This document shows positions 4,703 to 24,476 of a DNA stretch of 26,194 nt, one piece after another. The notes under the pieces are model-generated. The model was not told the origin of the DNA and did not search any database. It saw only the letters and a list, made by a program, of their open reading frames with translations. Both the position numbers and the translations under genes were made by a program. How positions within the stretch are numbered: position 1 is the first letter of the stretch; each line of letters starts with the position of its first letter. Origin of the DNA: a virus; the IMG/VR virus record IMGVR_UViG_3300034018_000164, positions 1 through 26,194 of that record. One strand, given 5' to 3'.

Positions 4703-4890
4703 ACTGGACACAACTGAACGCCACCATGAAGGGCTTGGGCGAGGAACAGGTGCTTGAACTGCTGGTAGCCGAACGCGGCGGCCCGCGCCGCAAGGTGTTC
4801 CTTGAGCGGCTGCATCAGCGGTATTCGGCCTTGCGTGCCGAACGCGAACGCGCTGAGATTATGGCGGAGGCGCGTCAGGCGCGAGGTTGA
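4699..4890 (+). CDS. Hypothetical small charged protein, 63 residues
   Basis: I do not recognise it. It is mostly helical and strongly charged (RLHQRYSALRAERERAE), without cysteines or membrane segments. Its ATG overlaps the helicase stop by four bases, so it is probably translated by coupling and may assist the helicase. Its last 32 bases overlap the 3' end of the spanin gene on the other strand, which places it at the end of the rightward operon. I see no strong terminator downstream. Confidence 0.6.
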   Translation: MNWTQLNATMKGLGEEQVLELLVAERGGPRRKVFLERLHQRYSALRAERERAEIMAEARQARG

Positions 4891-5338
4891 CCCACCCCTG
4901 TAGGGCGCGCAACCTAGCGCTTATGGTGTCACAGGAGGCGGCGAGGTTGCGGAGGTCGGGGCCGATGTCTGGCCCTTCTCCAGTATCCGCTCCAAGCGAT
5001 CCTGCATCGCTCCTGGCGGCGGGGGCGGCACCATCAGCTCCTTCGGCGGGCGGCTTGAGGCTGCGCACGGGGGATGTACGGCACAGCCGGACAGGAGTAG
5101 CAGGCTGAGTCCGGCTAGCAAGGCCATCCAGCTCCGAGCGGTAGGCGTCGAGGGCAGTCTCGGCACGCGCGCGATCAGCGCGTTCAGTCCGTAGTTCAGT
5201 CTCCAGACGGCGAATTTCCGGTTCCAATTCATCACGCACCCCCTCACGGATCTTGTGGACGCCCCACGCGGCAGCCGCCACGACGGCAACGGCGGCAATC
5301 AGGTGGGGCAGATAGCGAAGCAGCCAAACGGGCATCAT
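4859..5338 (-). CDS. Rz: Inner-membrane spanin (Rz-like)
   Basis: The protein is 159 residues. One N-terminal membrane segment (about 5-30, ending AAAAWGVHKI) is followed by a charged coiled coil (about 31-75, EIRRLETELRTERAD), then a Pro/Ala/Gly-rich linker and a C-terminal helix (SARLRALQGWV). This is the layout of inner-membrane spanins, which join the outer-membrane lipoprotein Rz1 to fuse the two membranes at the end of lysis. A second frame inside it encodes Rz1. Its ATG overlaps the stop of a tiny Cys-rich gene (ATGA). The first or second Met (5338 or 5335) could be used. Confidence 0.85.
   Translation of the reverse strand: MMPVWLLRYLPHLIAAVAVVAAAAWGVHKIREGVRDELEPEIRRLETELRTERADRARAETALDAYRSELDGLASRTQPATPVRLCRTSPVRSLKPPAEGADGAAPAARSDAGSLGADTGEGPDIGPDLRNLAASCDTISARLRALQGWVNLAPDAPPP
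4921..5127 (-). CDS. Rz1: Outer-membrane spanin lipoprotein (Rz1-like), nested in Rz
   Basis: The protein is 68 residues in a different frame wholly inside the Rz gene. It starts MALLAGLSLLLLSGCAVHPP: a hydrophobic signal with a lipobox (L-S-G-C), so C15 would be lipidated and the mature part would be about 54 residues. The mature part is proline-rich (VPPPPPGAM), typical of Rz1. The ATG at 5127 is preceded by CGGAG at a good distance; the open frame extends upstream to 5298, but the longer start would bury the signal. With Rz it forms the spanin complex that disrupts the outer membrane. Confidence 0.85.
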   Translation of the reverse strand: MALLAGLSLLLLSGCAVHPPCAASSRPPKELMVPPPPPGAMQDRLERILEKGQTSAPTSATSPPPVTP

Positions 5339-6596: not shown

Positions 6597-7100
6597 TTAC
6601 GCTTCAATGTCGCTAGATGACAGCCCGTTGCTAGCCAACAGCGGCAAACCGTCCGTCTTGGGCGGCGGCGCGTCTGCTGGCCATCGGTAGCCCAACACAC
6701 GGCTCTTGGCGAAGGGGGCGATGGTGACGGCGTTGCTTTGGTTGCCGCCGAGAACCATCAGCCGATTCTGGTAGTCCTGCGCTACGACGAAGCCCACATG
6801 GCCGCCGCCAGGGCGCTTGGCACCACCGTTAAACACTACGATGCAGCCCACCTCGGGCTTACGCAGCGGGTAGCCGTAGTCAAGATACGCCCGCGCGCGG
6901 TACCAATTCTTGGGTTTGGCGAGGCCGATGTCGGTGAGACACCCGCCGACAAACGCGCCGCACCACGGCGTCTCATCATCCGCCCACCAAGCGTTAAGCC
7001 GCCGCAGCCACTTGGCGATGACGGGGGCGGTCGTCTTGCCGGGGATCTCCCGCATACCCATGAATTGTCGCGCGTGGGTCAGCCAACGGGGGTCGGTCAT
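6597..7100 (-). CDS. Endolysin, CHAP/NlpC-like peptidoglycan hydrolase (TIGR02594 type)
   Basis: The protein is 167 residues. ETPWCGAFVGGC gives the catalytic C47, GGGHVGFV gives H101, and LGGNQSN gives the polar third residue (N120). This is the pattern of the small cysteine-peptidase family TIGR02594 used as lysins. It has no signal peptide, so release through a holin is expected, and a holin and a TM protein lie directly upstream. Its ATG overlaps the stop of that TM protein gene (ATGA). It would cut peptide stems or amide bonds in the cell wall. Confidence 0.85.
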   Translation of the reverse strand: MTDPRWLTHARQFMGMREIPGKTTAPVIAKWLRRLNAWWADDETPWCGAFVGGCLTDIGLAKPKNWYRARAYLDYGYPLRKPEVGCIVVFNGGAKRPGGGHVGFVVAQDYQNRLMVLGGNQSNAVTIAPFAKSRVLGYRWPADAPPPKTDGLPLLASNGLSSSDIEA

Positions 7101-7388: not shown

Positions 7389-7592
7389 TCACTTATCACG
7401 CAACGGCGTCGTGGTGGCGGCACGCAATGCGAGGTTGGCAAGCGCGCCTACGGCAAGGATGGCCGCCGCCACCTTAGCACCGAACAACGTGGTCAGATGC
7501 CCGCCGATTAGTTCCAGGCCGCCCAAGACGGCGAGCAGGATGTTCCACCAGACGGTGCGCGACTTGAACGCGCCTTTGAACAGGTCGGTCAT
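7389..7592 (-). CDS. Holin, putative
   Basis: The protein is 67 residues. It has two hydrophobic segments, about 13-33 (TVWWNILLAVLGGLELIGG) and 38-58 (AAAILAVGALANLAL), joined by a short turn and followed by a charged tail (RDK). Size, two helices and its position just upstream of an endolysin fit a small holin that opens the inner membrane. The family is not certain. It follows the large ejection-type protein gene by 12 bases. Confidence 0.75.
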   Translation of the reverse strand: MTDLFKGAFKSRTVWWNILLAVLGGLELIGGHLTTLFGAKVAAAILAVGALANLALRAATTTPLRDK

Positions 7593-18571: not shown

Positions 18572-19777
18572 TTAGCCCCAGACGCGAGCGGCGAGCTGCG
18601 GACGGATGACTCCGTAACCGTACAGCACGTCGATGCGGCAAGGCATCCGGTCGTTGTTGATGTCGTACTGGCGCACGATACGCAGGCTAATGCCGTTGTG
18701 AACCTGCCGCGAGGCCATGTCAACGCCCTGCGGGAGCAGGAGGTCGGCGGTGGCAAACGAAATCGCGTCCTTGTGGTACGCGAGGTTCTGCGGGTAGCTG
18801 GTGCTGGCGGCACCAACGAAGGTCACGACGGCGCTGTTCTGCGGGAACGAGTCCACGGTGGCAAGCGGGTGCGACGAGGTGTAGATCGCCGGGCTGATCC
18901 GCACGTTCGTGAACGCACTCGCCGCAGCCGTATTGGCTTCGGTCACGACGAACTGCTGGAGCGAACCAGTCGATTCGCGGGTCTGCGGGTTGACCGCAAA
19001 CACGCCCGCGATGGTGAACACATCACCCACCGCAAGCGTCTGAGCGGTCGTACCGTTGAACGAAATGGTAGTCGCGCCCTGCGCCGTCACCGTGCCGTTC
19101 ACCGTGATGCTACCCGAACGGGAGCCGGTGGTGAACTGCTTGATGGACTGCGACATGCCAATCTCGTCAAAGCCGAGGATGCCCTCGCCCATCATGCCAC
19201 CCTTGAACTGCTTGCTCACGGTGCTGACGGGGTTGAACAAGCCCTTCATGCCCTCGACCAGTCCGGCGTTGGCAGCCGGGTTGACCGTGAGGTAGCGCGG
19301 CGACATCGGCGCGGCAGCCTCGTTGAGCTTCTGGTTGGCCTGGAGAAGAACCAGCGAGGTCGCAGGCGTGGTGCCGGGGGTGCCGACCGACTGGTAGATG
19401 CCGTTGTAGGCGTTGGCCACATCAGCGTCCACGCTTGCAGCAAGCTGCGAGATACGCGGCTTGAGGACGCGCTCCGCGAAGTCGTCCAACGACAGCGCGA
19501 GTTCGGCGGACGTGAAGTTCACGCCGACATGCTTCTGGCTGGACACGGTGAGCGAGGTGAACTGCTCGTTGTCGGACTGCACCTGCAGGGCGGCACCGTC
19601 CGTCACCAGCGCACGATCCGGGAGACGGATGCGCAGGGTCGAGCCGATCTTAGCGCCTTCGACGGCGAACGAGTCGTCGTACTGGCGGTTGACGTTGCGG
19701 GTGATCACCAGGTTGTTCTCAAGGATCTCAAGAGCCTTGCGGGTGATCATGTCGATTGTAAGAAGTGAATTAGCCAC
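18572..19777 (-). CDS. Major capsid protein, P22 coat family
   Basis: The protein is 401 residues (P22 gp5 has 430). It starts MANSLLTIDMITRKALEILE, with the early strand-helix pattern of the HK97 fold in P22-type coats. FTSAELALSLDDFAERVLKP and NPAANAGLVEGMKGLF follow. A beta insert at about 222-325 (ITVNGTVTAQG, VGDVFTIAGV) corresponds to the I-domain of P22 coat. NLAYHKDAISFATADL at 331-346 completes the fold. The start is GTG at 19777 with GGAG before it. It lies next to the scaffolding gene, as expected. Confidence 0.9.
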   Translation of the reverse strand: MANSLLTIDMITRKALEILENNLVITRNVNRQYDDSFAVEGAKIGSTLRIRLPDRALVTDGAALQVQSDNEQFTSLTVSSQKHVGVNFTSAELALSLDDFAERVLKPRISQLAASVDADVANAYNGIYQSVGTPGTTPATSLVLLQANQKLNEAAAPMSPRYLTVNPAANAGLVEGMKGLFNPVSTVSKQFKGGMMGEGILGFDEIGMSQSIKQFTTGSRSGSITVNGTVTAQGATTISFNGTTAQTLAVGDVFTIAGVFAVNPQTRESTGSLQQFVVTEANTAAASAFTNVRISPAIYTSSHPLATVDSFPQNSAVVTFVGAASTSYPQNLAYHKDAISFATADLLLPQGVDMASRQVHNGISLRIVRQYDINNDRMPCRIDVLYGYGVIRPQLAARVWG

Positions 19778-20645: not shown

Positions 20646-20780
20646 CTAGTATGCAGATCCAACGCCAGCTTCGGGCGTCCTAAAATACTGCCCGACGCCG
20701 ATAGCTACGAAAGTGGCCCCCACCAGAATAGCGACGGAGGGGCAAAGGTCGGTATCAAATGCGCGTATGAACGTTTGCAT
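20646..20780 (-). CDS. Tiny hydrophobic protein, partner of the fibre-like gene (cassette copy 2)
   Basis: The frame is 44 residues: MQTFIRAFDT, then a hydrophobic stretch of about 20 residues (PSVAILVGATFVAIGV), ending TPEAGVGSAY. GGGAG, coded by the last residues of the upstream gene (W-E-stop), lies at ribosome-site distance from the ATG. Its C-terminus resembles that of the other tiny gene at 21723-21893 (PDPGIGFAY), and both follow a copy of the same larger gene. The repeated arrangement makes it more likely to be real than length alone suggests. It may be a membrane or virion-surface peptide. Confidence 0.6.
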   Translation of the reverse strand: MQTFIRAFDTDLCPSVAILVGATFVAIGVGQYFRTPEAGVGSAY

Positions 20781-20783
20781 GGG

Positions 20784-21713
20784 TTACTCCCAAATCATCG
20801 CAAGGCGGTATATCGGCGTGGTAGACCCGGTTGATGGGTCATTAACCGCGCCACTAGCGTTGCACGCGGGGAGGGCTATAAAAGTTCTTAGCGCCGCGCC
20901 AATCGGGTTAGCCGAAAAAGTGACGCCCGACGCAATTTCAGAAACAACCACCGTGCAAATCCCAAACTGCGGGACAACTCTAGGGACGGATGTAGACAAC
21001 GGCACCCAATGCGTAAAAAACTGCGGCAGCCCTCCGATAAGCGAAGATGTTATCGTGAACGGCACATAGCAAAACGCTTTATCTGTAGTTAAGGTAGTTG
21101 AAACATTGTTCGGTATGTCAACGCCTTGGCATTGCGTAAGTTGATTCGCCACATTTGTGGATTTCCCATACACCGTATACCCAAGCGTTGTAGGGTTAGT
21201 GTTGGCGTCTACGGTGCGAGACACACAAAATAATGCTAGTGAACCCGCAACGCTAGTAGGGTTTGCATCGGGGTTAGCAACAGCGGCATACCCAACAAAC
21301 CCAAAAAACGCGTTGTTAGAAGTGCGGCTAAGAAAAGACCGACGAGAACTTCCGTTTGGGATGCCTGCGGCAGCAATGCCACCTATAATTGTAGCTGATG
21401 AAGTAGCCCCCGTTAGCGTGCCTGATCCGTTGCTCCCTGTACCTACCTGCACGCGAATTGCTATGTTGGTGGCATTACCGCCGGTACCGTACTCCCATTT
21501 CATAAACAATGACGAGTCGGAAAAACGCCAAATTTCATATCCGGCGTATGTGTTAATTGCCGGGCGCAAAACCGTCGTCCAGTTGATTTGTCCCGTGTCG
21601 GCGGTCTGTACGAGGCCAACTTGCGCAAGGGACGCAGACAAATCCGAACCCCACGCCCTAAAGTCGGCGTCGTTGGCGTGGTTAATCGGGAAATCCCATT
21701 GTTTGACGGGCAT
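20784..21713 (-). CDS. Fibre-like structural protein, cassette copy 2
   Basis: The protein is 309 residues. Its first 55 residues, including FRAWGSDLSAS and QTADTGQINWTTVLRP, match the start of the copy upstream (21897-22772), while the middle and C-terminal parts diverge and both end in an A-M-[IL]-W-E pattern. The body is beta-rich with Thr/Asn/Ser runs, as in fibre or decoration proteins. GAGG, placed over the stop of the tiny gene before it, provides the ribosome site. The gene is AT-richer than the coat region (23 of 60 G/C at 21061-21120). It is probably a surface protein with a shared base and a variable exposed part. Confidence 0.65.
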   Translation of the reverse strand: MPVKQWDFPINHANDADFRAWGSDLSASLAQVGLVQTADTGQINWTTVLRPAINTYAGYEIWRFSDSSLFMKWEYGTGGNATNIAIRVQVGTGSNGSGTLTGATSSATIIGGIAAAGIPNGSSRRSFLSRTSNNAFFGFVGYAAVANPDANPTSVAGSLALFCVSRTVDANTNPTTLGYTVYGKSTNVANQLTQCQGVDIPNNVSTTLTTDKAFCYVPFTITSSLIGGLPQFFTHWVPLSTSVPRVVPQFGICTVVVSEIASGVTFSANPIGAALRTFIALPACNASGAVNDPSTGSTTPIYRLAMIWE

Positions 21714-21722
21714 ATCAAATCC

Positions 21723-21893
21723 TCAGTACGCAAAGCCGATGCCGGGATCGGGCTGGAAGAACAGATACGACACCGGCAAGACGATGCTCCAGTAGGTGTA
21801 CGCCGAGGGGTCAGCTCCGCCAAGTATTGGGCTAGCCGCCGACTGCGGTTGGGCAGGAGCGGTAGCGAGGTTGAACGCGGCGAGCATAGCCAT
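21723..21893 (-). CDS. Tiny hydrophobic protein, partner of the fibre-like gene (cassette copy 1)
   Basis: The frame is 56 residues: MAMLAAFNLATAPAQPQSAA, then SAYTYWSIVLPVSYLFFQ, ending PDPGIGFAY. The hydrophobic stretch near 32-46 could form a short membrane segment. The TGGGAG that codes the last residues of the upstream gene lies at ribosome-site distance from the ATG. The next gene begins ten bases after its stop. The C-terminal match with the other tiny gene supports it. No function is known. Confidence 0.65.
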   Translation of the reverse strand: MAMLAAFNLATAPAQPQSAASPILGGADPSAYTYWSIVLPVSYLFFQPDPGIGFAY

Positions 21894-21896
21894 CAC

Positions 21897-22772
21897 TTAC
21901 TCCCAGAGCATAGCAAATGAGTAGGCACTACCAAGCGCGCTCCCTTCCACGGCACTATCGGGGACAAGATATGTGCGCGGTGTAGTGCCTATTAGCGTTG
22001 TGGTAAACGTGCTGCCCGCAGGAACTTCGGAAGTAATTGTCGTGGCCGCGTAAGGATTGGGCAGCACCAATGGAAGCGCAGTCCAATGGATAAAACATTG
22101 CGTATCGCTGCCGACGATAGACGAAGTAATGCCCATAGGAATTACTACAAAACTGCCGCCAGTGTTTACGGGGCTAGCAACACCTGTCTGAAAATTGACG
22201 GCCTGTACAACCGGATGCCCGTTAAGACTAGTTGTTTTCCAGTATACGGTGACGCCGCGTGAGTCTGGCGCACCGGAACTGTTAGTAGTTCTGGCAACTG
22301 CCATCATAGCTACAGGGCCAGCACCACCCGTGCCAAGCCCAAACCTATACCCAACAAACCCAAAAAAACCGTCTTTGTAGACAAGAAAAGACTGGCGGCT
22401 TGTTCCGGGGTTATTTAGCGTGCTAGTACTGCCGCTAGCACATACGGTGCGAGCGGATACCGCACCTGTTAGCGTACCCGAACCGTTGCTGCCCTGCCCT
22501 ACTGTAAGCCACAAACCGGGCGTGCCGGAAGAGTTTCGCGTACCGTACTCAATTTTTAGAAATACGGTTGAGTCGGTATACCGCCAAATCTCGTACCCCG
22601 CCGCAGTATCTGTAGTAGTCGGTCTAAGAACCGTAGTCCAATCAATCTGCCCCGTGTCCGCAGTTTTAACCAAGCCTACCTCGGCAAACGATGCGGACAA
22701 ATCCGAACCCCACGCCCTAAAGAAAGCGTCAGTAGTGTGCTGGATCGGGAAAAACCACGCTTTCGTCGTCAC
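21897..22772 (-). CDS. Fibre-like structural protein, cassette copy 1
   Basis: The protein is 291 residues, starting from GTG 22772, which overlaps the stop of the previous gene (GTGA). The start, FRAWGSDLSAS and KTADTGQIDWTTVLRP, is shared with the copy at 20784-21713. The rest is beta-rich, with GYEIWRYTDSTVFLKIEYG and FFGFVGYRFG also conserved between copies. Both end with W-E before the stop. It is probably a virion surface or fibre protein. I see no enzymatic motif. Confidence 0.65.
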   Translation of the reverse strand: MTTKAWFFPIQHTTDAFFRAWGSDLSASFAEVGLVKTADTGQIDWTTVLRPTTTDTAAGYEIWRYTDSTVFLKIEYGTRNSSGTPGLWLTVGQGSNGSGTLTGAVSARTVCASGSTSTLNNPGTSRQSFLVYKDGFFGFVGYRFGLGTGGAGPVAMMAVARTTNSSGAPDSRGVTVYWKTTSLNGHPVVQAVNFQTGVASPVNTGGSFVVIPMGITSSIVGSDTQCFIHWTALPLVLPNPYAATTITSEVPAGSTFTTTLIGTTPRTYLVPDSAVEGSALGSAYSFAMLWE

Positions 22773-23266
22773 GGGATTTCTTCGACAATCAACTGAAAGT
22801 TAATGGCCGTAAAGACGCTTGAGGACTGGAGGTAGAACGTCACCAAGTCCCCGGCCTCAAGGATGGTCGAAGTCCAACCCGTAAAGTTGGTGTTGAACAG
22901 CGACGTGCCGCTAGTGATGGTCGGCTTGACCGTCGCACAAATAGACTGCGCAACGGTCGGAAGCACCGGCTTTTGCCGACGCCACACGTCAATCACGCAC
23001 GATCCGGTGCCGCCCTGCCCGATGATGTTGAGCGAAATAATCTGGCTTCGGTTTGCGATTTCAGTCGTGGCGGCAAGCGGCGCGACCACCGCACCGCCCA
23101 ATGAAGTCGCCCACACAGCCCCGTGCGAACGACGGCGAACCGGCGTCCACACATCGTTGATCGTCGCCTGTTTGGTCGTGCCGCCCTGCACTACGGCGAT
23201 GATTTCCGACCCGGTAAGCGGCGTGGTGGCCGCTGGCAAAGAGGTGATCAGGATAGGGTTGCTCAT
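22769..23266 (-). CDS. Fibre-associated structural protein, 165 residues
   Basis: The N-terminus, ITSLPAATTPLTGSEIIAVV and QGGTTKQATINDVW, is the short head seen in many phage fibre proteins. The C-terminal part (about 60-165) is a beta-sandwich with IDVWRRQKPVLPTVAQSI and GDLVTFYLQSSSV. It is probably a small tail or surface fibre. GAGGGGG precedes the ATG. It overlaps the next gene by four bases (GTGA). Confidence 0.65.
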   Translation of the reverse strand: MSNPILITSLPAATTPLTGSEIIAVVQGGTTKQATINDVWTPVRRRSHGAVWATSLGGAVVAPLAATTEIANRSQIISLNIIGQGGTGSCVIDVWRRQKPVLPTVAQSICATVKPTITSGTSLFNTNFTGWTSTILEAGDLVTFYLQSSSVFTAINFQLIVEEIP

Positions 23267-24077: not shown

Positions 24078-24476
24078 TCAGATTCTCCTGCGTTCTGTGA
24101 ACGAACGCAACTCTATAAAGTATATGTCAACCCCTACCGGCGGGGGAGGGGGGCCGCCCGAATATATCAGGTCGGCGTTGTTGCCGACATAGGAATATGT
24201 CCCGCCGTCAGCCAAAAGGATTCTGTTTACGCGGAGGTTGGCATTGTTGCCGCTGTACGAGTAAACGCCGCCATCAGCCGCCAAGACGCGGTTGAAAAGC
24301 AGGTCGGCGTTGTTGCCCGTGTAGGCGTAAGTCCCGCCGTCTGCCGACAGGACAAACGCCCCGGCGGTCGTATAGGTCAGCGTGGCATTGTTGCCGCTAT
24401 ACGAGTAAACGCCGCCGTCAGCCGAGAGGGTGAACGCTGCGGCTGCCGGTTGGTTGAATAGCAGCAGAAGGCTCAT
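24078..24476 (-). CDS. Repeat protein with four ADGGxYxYxGNNAxL units
   Basis: The protein is 132 residues. Four 17-residue units sit at about 17-33, 43-59, 65-81 and 87-103. Units one and three share GGVYSYSGNNA, and units two and four share GGTY and GNNADL. After them come a poly-Pro run (PPPPP) and a short C-terminal part (DIYFIELRSFTERRRI). Related repeats occur in phage proteins of unknown function near fibre genes. It is probably a beta-structure with a stacked turn. The start overlaps the previous stop by four bases (ATGA). Confidence 0.65.
   Translation of the reverse strand: MSLLLLFNQPAAAAFTLSADGGVYSYSGNNATLTYTTAGAFVLSADGGTYAYTGNNADLLFNRVLAADGGVYSYSGNNANLRVNRILLADGGTYSYVGNNADLIYSGGPPPPPVGVDIYFIELRSFTERRRI
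24168..24428 (-). repeat. Four in-gene repeats of a 51-base unit
   Basis: The units lie at 24378-24428, 24300-24350, 24234-24284 and 24168-24218, with spacing of 78, 66 and 66 bases. They encode the ADGGxYxYxGNNAxL units. The pattern alternates between two types, which suggests duplication of a two-unit block. Confidence 0.75.

Follow-up and report, generated by a model that had tools for sequence, protein, structure and literature searches.

We propose that two adjacent two-gene units on the minus strand of an uncultured viral genome are cassettes, each encoding a virion adhesin (the large protein) and an accessory structural peptide (the small protein) that latches or wraps the adhesin onto a carrier protein encoded upstream, and that such cassettes are exchanged whole. 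We put the probability of this reading at roughly 55%. The adhesin role of the large protein is well supported, as its predicted fold, its gene position in other phages and the domain encoded upstream agree. We infer a location in the virion, docking on the carrier, host binding and a latch role for the small protein. In what it does, the large protein would be of a known kind, namely a receptor-binding or fibre protein of a phage. The large family, the trailing peptide and the three-part order appear to be absent from the family libraries used; our literature search was brief, and an earlier description is possible.

The window analysed here is the entire IMG/VR record IMGVR_UViG_3300034018_000164 (26,194 bases). 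It holds a gene matching the P22 coat protein family (PF11651, E 1.9e-39, positions 18572–19777), as well as a scaffold gene, head-closure genes and ejection genes. Judging by the coat match, the phage is of the P22-like podovirus type. Among its other genes are a CHAP endolysin (6597–7100), a nearby 67-aa hydrophobic, holin-like protein (7389–7592, minus strand) and a pair of frames resembling nested spanins of the Rz/Rz1 type (4859–5338, minus strand, with 4921–5298 in another frame); neither the holin-like protein nor the spanin-like pair had a Pfam match. Further along, a 132-aa protein (24078–24476, minus strand) contains about four repeats of the ADGGxYSYxGNNAxL type, which differ between relatives, as seen from shifted blastn matches.

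The genes of interest run along the minus strand in the order carrier, large A, small A, large B and small B, followed by the scaffold gene. The carrier (22769–23266, 165 aa) combines a tail-spike-like N-terminus with a recurrent C-terminal domain of about 118 aa, and matches phrog_35197 at residues 57–154. Large A (21897–22772, 291 aa), the candidate adhesin with a modelled fold like that of JBD30 gp47, begins with a GTG codon that overlaps the stop of the carrier gene. It is followed by small A (21723–21893; 56 aa from an ATG, or 57 from an in-frame GTG), which ends in PDPGIGFAY. Large B (20784–21713, 309 aa) and small B (20646–20780, 44 aa, ending in PEAGVGSAY) repeat this order, and the coordinates of the reading frames thus bear out the side-by-side units described in an earlier note on this DNA, together with the PxxGxGxAY end common to both small proteins. 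In each unit, 3 nt separate the large gene from the small one. Both large proteins end in A-M-[LI]-W-E-stop, and the terminal TGG-GAG-TAA provides a GGGAG six bases before the ATG of the small gene in both units, so the note was also right that the last W-E codons and the stop form the ribosome site of the small gene.

Large A and large B share 44% identity over their full length (308 residues aligned), with conserved blocks in the middle of the protein (GSNGSGTLTGA, FFGFVGY and ITSS). The earlier impression that they resemble each other only at the N-terminus and at the very end therefore does not hold. On the tree of the large family, large A forms a clade (support 97/100) with one copy of L016 and the only copies of loci L007, L008 and L009; large B falls outside it. 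By this tree, the two are old paralogues; the word "duplicated" fits the gene order and not a recent event. Large B and small B are missing as a block from L007/L014, L008/L015, L009 and L010, as defined by blastn breakpoints and junction sequences, which delimit a mobile unit at 20655–21726 (minus strand). The switch from presence to absence lies in the A-Y-stop codons with which the small gene ends. Since the block is missing as a whole and the switch falls at the end of a small gene, large B and small B were gained or lost as one unit, in either direction.

Searching with ten relatives as queries, we found 79 related loci in IMG/VR viral contigs, some of them near-duplicates, and two further loci in genome bins. 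These bins, assigned to Thermosynechococcaceae (L089) and Armatimonadota (L088), possibly hold prophages or viral contigs binned with their host, and may give a hint of host identity. Among 50,697 named phages, the large family was detected in Tunturi_5 only, and the small proteins and the carrier matched none of them. The family spans podo-, sipho- and myoviruses, that is, three tail types. Pfam, PHROG and NCBIfam profiles gave no convincing match to the large family (two single weak PHROG matches among 88 members), and a sequence search of the PDB gave no usable match.

We then considered the genes on either side of the large gene across these loci. We seeded an iterative HMM on the carrier's C-terminal part (type 1 domain), and it matched 33 of 880 ORFs from related loci; of the 33, 29 are the gene directly upstream of a large gene, and four are other ORFs. 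The proteins that carry the domain are 163 to 1057 aa long, and in most of them it lies at or near the C-terminus. In another branch, the upstream genes end in a second domain family (type 2), for which no relation to type 1 was found. The type 2 model was trained on 13 upstream genes, and independent matches are therefore limited to L085, L076_0 and L089.

Downstream, the check proposed in the earlier note came out mixed. No more than about 21 bases ever separate a large gene from the start of the next one. In 21 of 91 cases, this gene is another large paralogue and not a short frame; in the rest it is a partner with a very variable and unrelated body, ranging from 43-aa peptides up to proteins with LamG, Ig-like or CarboxypepD_reg domains (L088:6859–7701, L082:5871–6674, L075:6005–6352 and L083:5903–6307). 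Despite this variation, the partners often keep a C-terminal motif. The GxGxAY end that the earlier note expected is confined to the close kin of the window, and the other branch has a related-looking end, GQxxPRG. The partners in L088 and L082 end in PTTGQxWPRGNW; a GQxWPRG peptide, a short query, found no match among the named phages. All 14 partners that have a type 2 carrier contain GQxxP near the end, as against none of 27 with a type 1 carrier and 2 of 825 other ORFs. We framed this pattern once the partners had been read, and later derived the type 2 carrier set from the upstream genes. About half of the type 1 partners, some with PDPGTGTAY ends among them, do not fit the loose motif pattern. 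On the large-gene tree, carriers switch type only twice, and shared descent alone could therefore yield the association between carrier and motif. With only two independent changes, we dropped this association as proof of contact. One further small partner, of 85 aa (L018:5889–6143), has a weak match to the uncharacterised 74-aa phrog_1634 (E 0.009), a possible link to known small phage proteins.

A large gene followed by a small one, with translational coupling, is a typical arrangement of fibre/chaperone pairs. This order and coupling are seen here, and the main rival to our reading makes the small protein an assembly chaperone dedicated to the large one, with no place in the virion. We consider this unlikely. 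The 21 cases in which one large gene directly follows another argue against it, since they imply that one partner can serve an array, as do the LamG, Ig-like and CarboxypepD_reg bodies of some partners, which are typical of virion or surface proteins. The small proteins also had no usable match in Pfam, PHROGs, NCBIfam or the PDB, chaperone families included, although searches with such short sequences have little power.

The adhesin reading draws on the predicted structure of the large protein. The AlphaFold2 model of large A, built from an alignment of 84 sequences, is of high confidence (pLDDT 93.7, pTM 0.92). Comparing it by VIA-align to chain K of the JBD30 baseplate (8rk3_K) gave a Z score of 15.7 and an rmsd of 3.7, with 249 of 291 residues aligned (range 2–291), and the next-best unrelated chain scored 4.5. 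This match was found by VIA-align alone, as a Foldseek search of the model against the PDB gave no significant match. We take 8rk3_K to be gp47 because its numbering, which runs to 318, fits this protein (318 aa; chain 8rk3_c bears its sequence) and not gp48 (307 aa). In JBD30, the fibre arms built of gp47 and gp48 attach to the type IV pilus, with residues 2–74 of gp49, a long N-terminal loop, wrapped around them (PMC11445458). The large proteins thus resemble gp47/gp48 (phrog_687, PDB 8rk3) in fold over nearly the whole chain, in length and in having paralogous neighbours, and in JBD30 it is the next gene that supplies the wrapping segment. Unlike this likeness in fold, there is no sequence similarity: the phrog_687 profile matched none of 88 large members, and an hhalign comparison of gp47/gp48 to the large family returned a probability of 1.6, with a poor large alignment that mixes two subfamilies. 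The gene slot also differs, and JBD30 is a phage of another type than the window phage with its P22-like coat. At the level of fold, two uncharacterised BFVD proteins are also similar to the large protein, from Stenotrophomonas phage Mendera (E 4.5e-9, TM 0.72) and Agrobacterium phage Atu_ph07 (E 6.4e-5), although they share only 16% and 10% identity with it.

The position of the large gene in other phages points in the same direction. A siphophage contig (L037) has the order gp47, gp48, a gp49-like gene, a protein in the gp50 position, the tail hub (phrog_1101), the large gene and a 60-aa partner. Its gp47 and gp48 occupy their own slot between the tape measure and the distal tail gene, and the large gene lies elsewhere; the large protein is therefore not gp47 itself. 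Following the hub as it does, it sits in the slot of the JBD30 receptor-binding protein gp54, into which the C-terminus of the JBD30 hub docks (PMC11445458). The likeness to gp54 concerns this slot; by its description, a tripod with a helical bundle thigh, a knee and a foot, gp54 has a different fold. In another locus (L049), two baseplate wedge genes (gp25- and gp6-like) and one short gene precede the large gene. Tunturi_5, a phage of Tunturiibacter and a myovirus by electron microscopy (PMC11924767), encodes true sequence homologues of the large protein, gp30–gp33 (PP885688), which are annotated as hypothetical proteins; the four genes lie one behind another, preceded by two genes with a tail fibre annotation. 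Unlike the window, it has no short gene between the copies; a single 105-aa partner follows the array and ends in PTTGQLFPLGRN.

In the window itself, the large genes have the carrier gene on one side and the scaffold and coat genes on the other, a neighbourhood that would suit capsid decorations or head fibres. We regard such a head role as quite unlikely, given that the neighbours of the large genes elsewhere encode tail hub, baseplate wedge or tail fibre proteins, and that the fold match is to a baseplate fibre protein. The suggestion that the units form a swappable surface or receptor module gains support from the tail-fibre fold match, from the hub and baseplate neighbours in other phages and from gain or loss as a unit.

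The small proteins are less easily recognised. Pairwise BLASTP found no similarity between small A and small B, but when aligned with their relatives the two have 12 invariant columns in common. No globular fold was detected, and when large A was modelled by AlphaFold together with small A, as the fusion that in-frame read-through would naturally yield, the small part came out disordered (pLDDT below 50), so no docking is visible there. Both had been described as hydrophobic; a strongly hydrophobic stretch is confined to small B, with a maximum Kyte–Doolittle hydropathy of 2.09 over 19 residues, against 1.08 in small A. The stretch in small B would fit a peptide acting on membranes, such as a holin-like protein, an anchor or a pore. 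As a general role for the partners this is very improbable: of the 58 downstream partners no longer than 135 aa, only 7 have a transmembrane-like stretch (mean hydropathy of at least 1.6), small A falls short of this value, and the window carries its CHAP endolysin (6597–7100), with a holin-like frame beside it, elsewhere. Of the roles offered in the earlier note, that of an anchor may still apply as a latch within the virion.

At the codon level, selection on the small genes is purifying, and the codon test suggested for them thus came out in favour of real genes. Differences between small A and three relatives fall mainly at the third codon position (4/4/16, 5/1/16 and 8/5/17 for the three positions). 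The dN/dS of small A is 0.11–0.24 across all usable pairs and 0.11–0.18 against relatives of the window copy; small B gives 0.13, from one usable relative and ten differences. Unrelated 68-aa partners in L031, L032 and L040 have similar values (0.10–0.16). The large A pair from L008 and L009, which had been compared without aligning internal gaps, was left out. That the small frames are translational spacers whose products have no function, as their shortness and varying bodies might suggest, is highly improbable given dN/dS of 0.10–0.24 in two unrelated sets and the excess of third-position changes.

Returning to the adhesin cassette, we suggest the following mechanism. The large adhesin would dock on the C-terminal domain of the upstream carrier, a place that the tail hub itself would take in a related siphophage. 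The small protein would be an extended peptide with its conserved C-terminal motif as the working end, and would latch or wrap the large subunits onto the carrier. JBD30 offers a close parallel in the loop at the gp49 N-terminus, which winds around the fibres of gp47 and gp48. The gp49 analogy, a motif kept across unrelated bodies and the absence of a fold of its own are what suggest such a role. The ribosome site, set within the end of the large gene's coding sequence, would couple translation and keep the two proteins in step, and the exchange of whole cassettes would change the adhesin set. More tentatively, podo-, sipho- and myoviruses whose hosts are uncultured might possibly share a three-part plug-in, in which a carrier socket holds one to four exchangeable adhesins and a trailing peptide, the motif being read by the socket so that unrelated bodies could be mounted on the same site.

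If our reading holds, it gives a name to a receptor-binding module that present annotation overlooks altogether, there being no family model that matches it, and that is nonetheless present in 79 viral loci and three tail types. It would also provide a starting point for predictions of host contact by uncultured viruses. The finding points to very short conserved genes that are lost to length cut-offs. The soil host of Tunturi_5 is in culture, which makes the module testable.
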